Shown here: positions 9,710-13,478 of the stretch, in pieces
Layout: every line of letters begins with the position of its first letter
How positions within the stretch are numbered: position 1 is the first letter of the stretch
From: Cyanobacteria bacterium REEB459
GTDB taxonomy: Bacteria; Cyanobacteriota; Cyanobacteriia; Phormidesmidales; Phormidesmidaceae
Direction of reading: 5' to 3'
DNA: 39,683 nt
Assembly (NCBI GenBank): GCA_018970085.1
Contig: JAGWXD010000029.1
Location: 1 to 39,683 of the forward strand
Made by a program: the position numbers and the translations under genes
Notes under the pieces: generated by a model
Database searches by the model: none
What the model was told of the DNA's origin: nothing
What the model saw: only the letters and a program-made list of their open reading frames with translations

Positions 9710-10354
9710 ATGCGGGTTAAGATTTGTGGCATTACCCGGCTTGATCAGGCCCTGGAGATCGCGGCTCTAGGCGCTACCGATCTGGGTTTTATCTGCGTTC
9801 CTCGGTCCCCTCGCTACCTGCCAGTAGATCACCTGGGGCAGCTTCTGGGTGGTCTGCGCCATGGCCAGGTGCGGGTCGGCATGGTGGGGGTCGTTGCGGA
9901 TCGCAGCCTAGCAAGTCTGCAGGCGATCGTGGAGCAAACCGGTTTGAGCGCCCTCCAGCTCCACGGGGATGAAACCCCAGAAGACTGCCGCCAAATCCGT
10001 CAGACCCTACCTGGTTGTGAGTTAATCAAGGCGATTCGGGTGGCTACCAGGGCCGATCTAGAGCGGGCCCTCACCTATGCTGACTGGGTCGATGCCCTGC
10101 TTCTAGATGCCTATCATCCCAGTTCCCTGGGCGGTACCGGCCTCACCCTGGACTGGGCCAGTCTGACCAACTTTAGACCCCCTTGCCGCTGGTTTTTGGC
10201 CGGTGGCCTGAGCCCTGATAACATTCAAAAGGCCCTGGAGGATCTATCCCCCGACGGCATTGATCTCTCCAGTGGCCTGGAAGTGCGCCCAGGGTGGAAG
10301 GACCTGGCTCTGGTAGACCGCCTGTTTCAACGGTTAGGCCCCTGGCTGACCTGA
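9710..10354 (+). CDS. trpF: Phosphoribosylanthranilate isomerase
   Basis: TIM-barrel enzyme of tryptophan synthesis, 214 residues, cytoplasmic; converts N-(5'-phosphoribosyl)anthranilate to the carboxyphenylamino-deoxyribulose phosphate. The general base Cys6 lies in MRVKICGITR and the general acid Asp133 in LLLDAYHPS. Other family motifs are LGFICVPRSPRYL, LQLHGDET, GGTGLTLDW, the phosphate-binding FLAGGLSPDNI and GIDLSSGLEVRPGWKD. Start at ATG 9710 places the motif exactly as in the family. No other trp gene is in the window, which is usual in cyanobacteria where trp genes are scattered. Confidence 0.96.
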   Translation: MRVKICGITRLDQALEIAALGATDLGFICVPRSPRYLPVDHLGQLLGGLRHGQVRVGMVGVVADRSLASLQAIVEQTGLSALQLHGDETPEDCRQIRQTLPGCELIKAIRVATRADLERALTYADWVDALLLDAYHPSSLGGTGLTLDWASLTNFRPPCRWFLAGGLSPDNIQKALEDLSPDGIDLSSGLEVRPGWKDLALVDRLFQRLGPWLT

Positions 10355-10418: not shown

Positions 10419-12722
10419 ATGGAATGGCTGCAACGTCTAGATAGTATCAGTCTGGATCATCATTCCCCAGCCGGACCTCCAGTCAATTACCTGGGTTTGC
10501 TGGCTCAACATCAGCTACCGGTGAGCACCGGTTGGGTGCTGGGGCCTAAGGTTTGGAGCCAAGTCTGGCAGCACCTGATCGAAGCTGACCCCTGGCTGCA
10601 AGCAGGGATTGCCACCCTGAACTGGCAGGACTTCAGCCATCTGCAACGGGTTAGCCAGCGAGCCCAGGCTTCGTTTCAAGCGATCGGCCTGCCGCCGGCC
10701 CTGATTAGGGATCTAGCCGTCTGGCCCTACTCCGACTGGTTACTACAGGCCAGCCTGGAGACTGGTGATCGAACCCGAGAATTCCTGACCCGCCAGGTTA
10801 GTAGTCAACCCCACCAGACCCTGGCCCAGTCCCTTCACCAATTTTGGAGCCAGCTATTTACCGCCCGCAGTCTGGTTGTCTGTCAGCGCCACTGCCAGTA
10901 CCTGGTCAATTTGCCGCTCACCACCCAGATTCTGCCCCTCTCTCCCCTACTGGCGGCCGGCACCCTCAGTCTTAGCGGTAATCAAGGCGAGATTAGGGCT
11001 GTGCTAGGGCTAGACCTACCCCTCAGTCGCGGTGAAGCCTGGCCCGCTCGCTGCCATTTCAGCCTGCCTCTGACAGATGCCCTGGTTTGGCAGCCAGGCT
11101 TTCAGGAGGAGGTATATCAGGTCGATCACACCAAGGTTGGGGTGCAGGTGAACCAGCGGTCAACCCCCGAACTTGTCGATCCCCTCACCGTTGCCCAGGT
11201 CCAGCGGCTGATTCAGCTGGGCCGACAAGCCCAGGCTGTTTTTCAAGAGCAGCCCCCATCCCCCTACCCTGGGTACCTGGACCGGCTGGGTCTACGGTGG
11301 TGGTTAGGTGCCCAGGCCAGCGCCCCAGGCTGGCAATTTTGGCTGACCCAGGTAGAGCCCGACTGGAGTGACCCAAGGGCTGTGCCCCGGGCTGCACCAG
11401 CAGCGGCCCTACCCCCTGCCCTACCAGGAGTGAGCACGGTCATTCAGGGGATCGGGGCAGCGGCGGGCCAGGTGGAGGGCATCGCGGTAGTGGCCCAGCG
11501 ATCGCAGGATTTGCCAACCCCCCTACCCCCCCATGCCATTGTCATCTTGCCAGACCTTCAACCCGATGTATTTCTAGAATTGGGAGCCGTAGCCGGAATT
11601 GTCACAGAGCGGGGCGGGGCCACCTGCCATGCCGCCATTCTGGCCCGGGAAATCGGCATACCAGCGGTGGTGGGGGCACCCCAGGTAACGGAATTCCTCC
11701 AGAGTGGGGCGGTAATCTGGCTGGATGGCCATCGCGGCCTGGTTTACGAACTACCAGAGCCGACCATTCCTCAGACCGGTTTACTCCCCAGTCGGCAAAA
11801 GCCTCCCCTGGCCCCATCGCCCCGGCTCTACACCGACCTGCGGACTCGGGTGATGGCTAATATTAGCCAGATTCAATGTCTATCCAGTCTGCCGGTGGAC
11901 CAAATTGCCGGGGTTGGACTCTTGCGATCGGAATGGCTACTGCTAGAGGTGCTGGATGGCCGCCATCCCTGGCACTGGATTGACCAGGGGCAGGAAGCCG
12001 AGCTGCAAACCCGCTTGGTTGAGCAGCTGGAACCCTTGCTGACGGCCCTGGGGCCTAAACCCCTGCGCTATCGTAGTTTGGATCTGCGTTCCCACGAATG
12101 GCAGGCCCTGGTCGGCAGCCCAGCCCTGGAGCCCAATCCCATGCTGGGGTTGCGGGGCACCCTCAGTTACACTCTAGATGATCGTCTATTTCAGGTGGAA
12201 CTGGCATCCCTGGCCACCCTCCAGCGAGCCGGCCATCACCACCTCCAGCTGATTTTGCCCTTTGTGCGCACTGTGGAAGAGGTGATTAGTTGCCGACGGC
12301 TGATTACCCAGGCGGGGCTGGCGGACTACGAACATTTTGCCCTCTGGATTATGGCGGAGGTGCCCTCTGTCTTGTTTTTGATTCCCGCCTATGCCCAGGC
12401 TGGCGTGCAGGGGATTACCATTGGCTCCAACGACCTGACCCAGTTACTGCTGGCGGTGGACCGGGACCAACCCACCATAGCCTCGGCCTACGATGAACGC
12501 CATCCCGTGGTCCGCATGGCCATGGCCCACCTGATCCGTGAAGCCCGTCGCTGTGGGCTGGTGTGCTCTATCTGTGGGCAGGCACCGGTACGCCATCCCG
12601 ATCTAATTGCCGATCTGGTGAACTGGGGTATTAGCTCCATTTCCGTTGAAGCTCCGGCTCTGGCCTTTACCCTGGAGGCGGTTTGGCAGGCTGAACAGAG
12701 CCTAAAGGGCACTGGAATCTAA
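10419..12722 (+). CDS. PEP-synthase-like phosphotransferase with degenerate ATP-grasp half
   Basis: Protein of 767 residues laid out as pyruvate,phosphate dikinase / PEP synthase. The central swivelling domain has the phospho-histidine His404 in [23 protein letters not shown]. The C-terminal PEP/pyruvate barrel has [21 protein letters not shown], a metal Glu in IMAEVPSV, a metal Asp in [15 protein letters not shown], and the proton-donor Cys719 in SICGQAP. The N-terminal ATP-grasp part (about 1-330) is weak: there is a trace of the 'SLftpRa' helix ([15 protein letters not shown]), but the RSSATAED and GLGE-type nucleotide motifs of PPDK/PpsA cannot be found. The barrel motif usually R-x-x-D-x-x-x-DK reads RSLDLRSHE, so one substrate residue differs. 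It may not bind ATP, or may act with another partner. The 3' end overlaps convergent cysH by 21 bases. Confidence 0.8.
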
Positions 12723-13478
12723 ACTGGCGGCTTCCTCCGGTGATTGGGGCAGGTGCAGGCCACACTCCTGTTTTAGTCCCCGGAAGCGGGTATCCCGCTC
12801 ATTGCTGTCGGCGGCGGTGAGGGGGCGGCTGGAGTGCCAGTCGCCAACGGTGACGTAACCCTTGTCAAATAGAGGATGGTAGGGTAAGTCGTGGGCCACC
12901 AGGTATTGGTAAATCTCCCGGGCGTTCCACTTCAGGATGGGCATGAGCTTGTAGTAGCCATCCTGCTGACCTACCCGCTGCAGCGATCGCCGGTGATTAG
13001 TCTGATCGGCCCGCAGCCCGGTTAACCAGGCCGTCGACCCGAGTTCCCGTAGAGCCCGTTGCATGGGTTCCACCTTGCGAATCTGGTCGTAGCGATTCAG
13101 GTCCGCCACCTCCCCCTGCTCCCACAACCGTCCGTAGAGAGCCTCCATGCGGGCCGGACTGAGGGGAGACTGGTAAACCTTAAGGTTGAGCTGTAGCCGG
13201 TTCGTGAGTTCTTCGGCAAAGCGATAGGTCTCTACGGGTAGATAACCCGTATCCACCCAAATTACTGGAATGGCCGGTGCTACCTGGGTAACCAGGTGTA
13301 GCATCACCGCCGATTGAATGCCAAAACTGGTACTTAGCACCAGGCCATCCCCAAAGGTATCGTGGCCCCACTGTACAAACCGTAGGGCATCACCATCGGC
13401 CCATTGCCGATTTACCGCCTCTAAATCCAGAACCGGACCAGTGCGTGGATGGTTCTGTAAAAGCATGGTATCGGTCAT
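12702..13478 (-). CDS. cysH: Phosphoadenylyl-sulfate (PAPS) reductase
   Basis: Reduces PAPS to sulfite in assimilatory sulfate reduction, using thioredoxin (or glutaredoxin). Length 258 residues. The nucleotide-binding loop is [10 protein letters not shown] (49-58), followed by [23 protein letters not shown] and [11 protein letters not shown] bind substrate, and the catalytic cysteine is Cys239 in ECGLH. The paired-cysteine motifs that hold the 4Fe-4S cluster of APS reductases are missing (the site before RKVEPM reads YDQI), so it is a PAPS-type rather than APS-type enzyme. Start at ATG 13478; an in-frame ATG four codons on is possible. Sulfite produced leads to the sulfide used by MetY, linking it functionally to metX-metY though 10 kb away. 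Confidence 0.94.

Follow-up and report, generated by a model that had tools for sequence, protein, structure and literature searches.

Related enzymes

PEP synthase (PpsA; pyruvate, water dikinase; TIGR01418, NF005057) is among the closest described relatives of the protein analysed here, with which it shares domain order, PEP-side residues and the barrel motif R.LD.RS.E. The two differ in that our protein lacks ATP-site residues, scores below the curated cut-offs and lies on a separate branch. PTS Enzyme I (TIGR01417) has the same swivel and barrel domains and may serve, by analogy, as a working model of phosphate transfer from PEP to a His without ATP. Rifampin phosphotransferase and the HpeHI/PpsAB phenol-type kinases are ATP-grasp plus swivel-His dikinases; these keep the ATP site and have no PEP barrel (PMC4844700, PMC12167813). 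Our protein is their reverse, the barrel being kept and the ATP site lost.

In rifampin phosphotransferase, K22A abolishes activity, Lys22 being in contact with the phosphates of ADP; Arg117 and Thr136 place the alpha-phosphate, and Glu297Ala, at a Mg-coordinating Glu, leaves resistance unaffected (PMC4844700). Because of this last result, a missing acidic residue does not by itself prove loss. By our own assignment, Arg117 is the Arg of the RSS motif and Thr136 the Thr of the nearby QET. A search of the open-licence PMC literature returned no paper on the PpsA-like family described below. A published table lists Anabaena 7120 alr3147 and alr3397 as PEP synthases that decrease under the FurA overexpression conditions given (PMC4788461), and another paper lists all0635 as ppsA (PMC7699953).

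Gene and domain organisation

The window, by which we mean the whole 39,683-nucleotide stretch of Cyanobacteria bacterium REEB459 DNA that was analysed, encodes a PEP-synthase-like paralogue of 767 amino acids plus stop codon on the forward strand (10419–12722), as indicated by the open frame, its PF00391 and PF02896 matches and its orthologues. The 767-codon frame was intact, without an internal stop, and the parts of the protein given below are all on the same strand. A degenerate ATP-grasp (PPDK_N-like) domain occupies approximately residues 1–335 (10419–11423); it was recognised from a profile-profile alignment and from aligned family members that match PF01326. It is followed by a phosphohistidine (swivel) domain at approximately residues 340–445 (11436–11753; PF00391 at residues 370–440) and by a PEP-binding barrel at approximately residues 473–762 (11835–12704; PF02896 at residues 473–756, 4.2e-48). 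PEP-utilizers (370–440) and PEP-utilizers_C (473–756) were the only two Pfam families detected in the protein at E ≤ 1, and PPDK_N (PF01326) was not matched even at this threshold. PPDK_N was detected in 43 of 44 aligned proteins, the window protein being the sole exception.

Scores against the curated PpsA models were 274.7 bits for TIGR01418 (cut-off 739.75) and 294.5 bits for NF005057 (cut-off 598), with both matches starting only at residue 340; five relatives also fell under the PpsA equivalog cut-offs. PDB sequence matches similarly began no earlier than about residue 336, and the top ones were the PEP synthases 8a8e, 9dae and 2ols. Judged by its sequence, the window protein is a PEP synthase paralogue with an apparently intact PEP-handling half, but most of the predicted ATP-holding residues are gone.

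The PEP/pyruvate half

The catalytic His404 (11628–11630) and Cys719, at the general-acid position (12573–12575), were present in all 75 aligned family members and in all 31 canonical PpsA sequences, a set that omits C_L070. The chemical role of Cys719 as general acid is one that we assume from PPDK. R503, R552, R617, E647 and D672 were identical across the same 75 and 31 sequences, and conservation within the family was partial at Glu505 (72 of 75), Asp555 (73) and Asn671 (71). The residue after the regulatory Thr was Ser in 72/75 family members and Cys in 31/31 canonical sequences; the window protein has Cys. The earlier note had described the phospho-histidine and Cys719 as kept and this half as seemingly active. 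Both residues are indeed there and invariant in relatives, and with seven PEP-side residues conserved in 75/75 the half looks active.

The earlier note had also reported a departure from the barrel motif R..D...DK. A motif ending in DK is the form found in PPDK and Enzyme I. The window protein reads RSLDLRSHE, in which R552, D555 and E560 align with the R, D and E of R.SDFKSNE in the canonical PpsA of the same genome, so the barrel is normal. The supposed departure was therefore a misreading of the PpsA form R.LD.RS.E, and loss of the barrel motif was rejected.

The ATP-grasp half

Five ATP-site positions were followed, namely the Lys of GGK, the Arg of RSS, the Glu of DIEW, and the Gln and Arg of QxR, which we take to be K22, R92, E323, Q335 and R337 of PPDK. 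All five residues were found in 32/32 canonical PpsA of the cyanobacterial phylum and in 0/75 family members. Within the family, none was kept in 3 proteins, one in 13, two in 14, three in 28, four in 17 and five in none, and the window copy keeps one. It reads Pro21 at the phosphate-binding Lys22 position (10479–10481; Lys in 32/32 canonical, 48/75 family and 23/23 genus-mate sequences), Gln110 at the RSS Arg position (10746–10748; Arg in 32/32, 58/75 and 23/23 respectively) and Arg293 at the DIEW Glu position (11295–11297; Glu in 32/32, 35/75 and 23/23 respectively). Glu313 stands at the QxR Arg position (11355–11357); QxR was present in 32/32 canonical sequences, and QxRP after an invariant Trp in 0 of the 73 family proteins searched. 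Gln311 (11349–11351) is the sole residue of the five to be kept, and is Gln in 52/75 family members.

By PPDK numbering, K22 and R337 presumably align with Pro21 and Glu313. The PPDK mutants K22A (1jde) and R337A (2dik) are laboratory changes at ATP-site positions, to which the window protein would offer a natural counterpart if our reading is right. At the positions of Lys22, Arg117 and Thr136 of rifampin phosphotransferase, the window protein has Pro21, Gln110 and Arg.

An independent alignment of 72 family with 32 canonical N domains, profile against profile, returned the same register with a probability of 99.95%. The canonical RSSATAED loop aligned with QASLETGD (residues 110–117) of the window protein and GLGE with GLDL (197–200). 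The absence of RSSA-type and GLGE-type motifs from the first ~330 residues, as stated in the earlier note, is thus borne out, in line with the unmatched PPDK_N. As read from the alignment, the whole family has lost the RSSATAED loop, the QxR Arg and the GLGE Glu.

Comparison within the genus divides this loss. In the genus-mates, Lys, Arg and Glu are unchanged (23/23), the Gln position holds Gln (11) or Glu (12), and the QxR Arg is missing. The window copy is alone among the 24 genus sequences in having lost Lys, Arg and Glu (it reads Pro, Gln, Arg). As the genus-mates keep three residues that the window copy lost, and are themselves without the QxR Arg, the alignment indicates a loss in two layers: the family lost part of the ATP site long ago and the window copy lost most of the rest. 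The motif loss is not confined to this copy, being partly common to the whole paralogue family. Whether orthologues have normal motifs, a point raised in the earlier note, is answered in part: no relative keeps all five residues, yet some of the loss is the window copy's own divergence. That 23/23 genus-mates hold these three charged residues suggests an anionic ligand still bound at their ATP site, and speaks more strongly than any other observation against a family-wide, complete loss of ligand binding. As the erosion is graded within one genus, the residues that set the two half-reactions apart become open to study.

Structure models bear on the descent of this domain. The model of the window protein was weak (pLDDT 61.9, with residues 189–338 mostly <50) and that of a Nostoc orthologue better (pLDDT 74.6, pTM 0.48). 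The best PDB match of the latter was PpsA 2ols, and 5hv6_A, the ATP-binding domain of rifampin phosphotransferase, also matched it (TMt 0.61). Whole-chain superpositions gave rmsd values of ~27–30, a result of differing domain positions, so the residue equivalences above rest on sequence alignment and not on superposition. Together with PPDK_N in 43/44 aligned proteins, the structure match supports an ATP-grasp descent of the N domain, whether or not it still binds ATP.

Proposed reaction

In our main reading, which we give a probability of roughly 45%, the window protein would retain just one half of the three-step dikinase reaction, that of PEP and pyruvate, and pass the phosphate to an acceptor; the half-reaction, its direction and the acceptor are what we infer. 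The barrel would bind Mg-PEP, phosphate would move reversibly between PEP and His404, and Cys719 would protonate the pyruvate enolate. With the phosphate-binding residues of the ATP-grasp domain gone, the swivel domain would no longer carry phosphate to or from ATP, and might instead hand it to a small molecule, a partner protein or water. The earlier note had suggested that the protein might draw on a different phosphate donor or serve as a regulator; PEP itself is the phosphate donor that we prefer, with the phosphate passed onward. Against this reading, 17/75 family proteins lack just one of the five ATP-site residues. With these and with the Lys, Arg and Glu of 23/23 genus-mates, relatives may still bind nucleotide or another anion.

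The same residues bear on the alternative that the protein is still a dikinase with an altered site, using ATP in another geometry or another donor (ADP, GTP, polyphosphate). Such an enzyme would fit the clear ATP-grasp descent of the domain, seen both in the profile-profile alignment and in the PPDK_N matches, the retention of Lys (48/75), Arg (58/75) and Gln (52/75) in the family, and the three residues common to the genus-mates. We nevertheless consider it unlikely, given the family-wide loss of the RSSATAED loop, the GLGE Glu and the QxR Arg, to which the window copy adds the loss of Lys, Arg and Glu.

The half-reaction, if correct, would place a second protein that consumes or senses PEP at the PEP/pyruvate node of many cyanobacteria. 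Where annotated, such a protein would be labelled PEP synthase, and the reaction given to it in flux models would be wrong.

A paralogue family in cyanobacteria

Matches to the window protein at E ≤ 1e-20 were found in 141/386 genomes of the phylum. Among the matches listed, the paralogue family was present in 98/386 genomes, including that of the window, and the other matches were canonical PpsA. These 98 genomes were picked by a bit score of ~187 or more after dropping G041, whose match was canonical; G296, with a partial 154-bit match, lies outside the 98 and may hold a family member. The 75-member alignment was made without the truncated L041 and the duplicate L004, and the profile also without L051 and L053. 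Same-genus orthologues were ~56–61% identical to the window protein over full-length matches.

A tree of the PEP half (54 rows; a quick method giving SH-aLRT values without bootstrap) separated 38 family rows from 11 canonical and 5 other PpsA sequences by a branch of SH-aLRT 100. By this tree the window protein is grouped with an unnamed cyanobacterial family of PpsA-like paralogues, apart from canonical PpsA.

A separate canonical ppsA in the same genome, a check suggested by the earlier note, was found on contig C23 as one 862-aa frame (PPDK_N 408 bits, PEP-utilizers_C 216.6 bits) that clears the TIGR01418 cut-off at 1225.5 bits. Among the matches listed, canonical PpsA was also present in 92 of the 98 family genomes. 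This co-occurrence, like the relaxed N domain, would suit a pseudo-paralogue that senses PEP or pyruvate or has a regulatory role, and that might for instance join canonical PpsA in a complex and alter its activity. We regard that role as improbable: His404 and Cys719 would be needless for sensing alone and yet are both kept in 75/75, and in six family genomes (G091, G121, G183, G185, G268 and G289) no PpsA reached the TIGR01418 cut-off, although G121, G183 and G268 are single-contig assemblies. The counts of ATP-site residues kept, out of five, in five family members from these six genomes are 2, 2, 4, 3 and 3, so that these proteins are not plainly restored PpsA.

Outside these genomes, a scan of a contig collection with the window protein alone gave no match. 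When a family-specific stretch was used, 349 stretches were confirmed and 80 kept, from Nostocales or other cyanobacterial records, so that the alignments used for modelling are lopsided. One scan of a viral contig collection gave no match. Among plasmids, 440 records had weak relatives, none of them >60% identical.

Selection and divergence

Nine genus or family pairs of relatives gave dN/dS values of 0.04–0.13 for the PEP half and 0.14–0.26 for the N half. Both halves are under constraint in relatives, the N domain less so (purifying selection). Mean pairwise identity in the family was 0.581 for the PEP domain and 0.415 for the N domain; the corresponding values for canonical PpsA were 0.809 and 0.749.

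The window copy had the lowest mean identity to the 23 genus-mates in both halves (N 0.357, PEP 0.731; the genus-mates' own means were 0.396–0.614 and 0.744–0.829), a pattern also compatible with gene decay. Early pseudogene status for this copy alone, with the family functional in other genomes, would in addition be in keeping with its being the only one of the 24 genus sequences to have lost Lys, Arg and Glu, and with a genome of 3.24 Mb compared to 3.4–7.3 Mb in the 25 genus-mates listed. We hold this to be distinctly unlikely, however, as the 767 codons are open with no stop, all seven PEP-side residues are kept, and the PEP half compared to genus-mates has dN ~0.17–0.21 with dS >1.1, which is far from neutral although dS is near saturation.

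Genomic context

A trpF-like gene lies upstream of the paralogue gene (9710–10354) and a cysH-like gene downstream (12702–13478); the latter is convergent and overlaps the paralogue gene by 21 bases. Among 100 loci with flanking sequence, no more than one had window neighbours next to the gene. Ten window genes, among them trpF and cysH, served as queries and had no match within the flanks of 29 same-family loci. Elsewhere the paralogue gene stands alone with varied neighbours, and the loci compared revealed neither a conserved operon nor a conserved partner gene. A divergent MgtC-like gene (named by eye) recurs in a set made up mostly of Nostocales; its cluster lies near the paralogue gene in 75 loci. 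A ComF-like gene (also named by eye) adjoins the paralogue in a few others. Such recurring neighbours were taken as location, not function, and an operon partner was rejected. In the Nostocales loci L075–L154, the paralogue is mostly divergent from an MgtC/SapB-like gene, with recF-like and P-type-ATPase-like genes beyond (by eye).

The PpsA regulatory protein (PF03618) was absent from the window's genome and from every same-class genome, and was present in 22/386 genomes, all related at the level of phylum only. Phosphorylation-type regulation by this protein was rejected, as PF03618 was not found in the genome itself.

HPr (PF00381) gave 0 matches in the window's genome at E ≤ 1e-5, and 31/386 genomes have one. 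The HPr matches were mostly inside frames of 820–875 aa, suggesting fused PTS proteins. A PTS Enzyme I-like protein, passing phosphate from PEP to HPr, would account for the two shared C-terminal domains (TIGR01417, 114 bits) and for the family being carried by 30/31 HPr-bearing genomes. It is very unlikely indeed: HPr was also absent from 68 of the 98 family genomes among the matches listed, no N-terminal Enzyme I Pfam domain was reported at E ≤ 1, and all scores were far under the Enzyme I cut-offs. The N-terminal domain of the window protein is ATP-grasp-derived and is not the HPr-binding domain of Enzyme I. The half-reaction reading could be extended to the whole family, which would then be an ATP-independent, PEP-dependent phosphotransferase whose ATP-grasp lobe now serves as an acceptor surface, giving cyanobacteria an HPr-free, PEP-driven phosphorelay. 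This broader form we consider doubtful.

Other dikinase-family sequences

The window's genome encodes a second dikinase-like protein without a PEP barrel, L002 on contig C71, a 966-aa frame open at the 3′-end with glycerol-3-phosphate acyltransferase, PPDK_N and PEP-utilizers swivel domains. Two PpsA matches with internal stops (G385:C1:230389 and G326:C89:13834) are possibly broken canonical copies in family-bearing genomes. A 14105-aa frame surrounds the PpsA match of L240 (G051:C1:1536002-1538128), likely due to an N run, since L240 holds 201 N. In L239 (G022) and L241 (G064), the canonical PpsA has an in-frame interruption of ~390 residues immediately ahead of the catalytic His, with GGRTC on one side and CHAAI on the other. 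The insert starts with CFDGETKIL and ends with VVVCN before Cys, ends that look intein-like, and the TIGR01418 match splits at 413/415 in several other genomes too.
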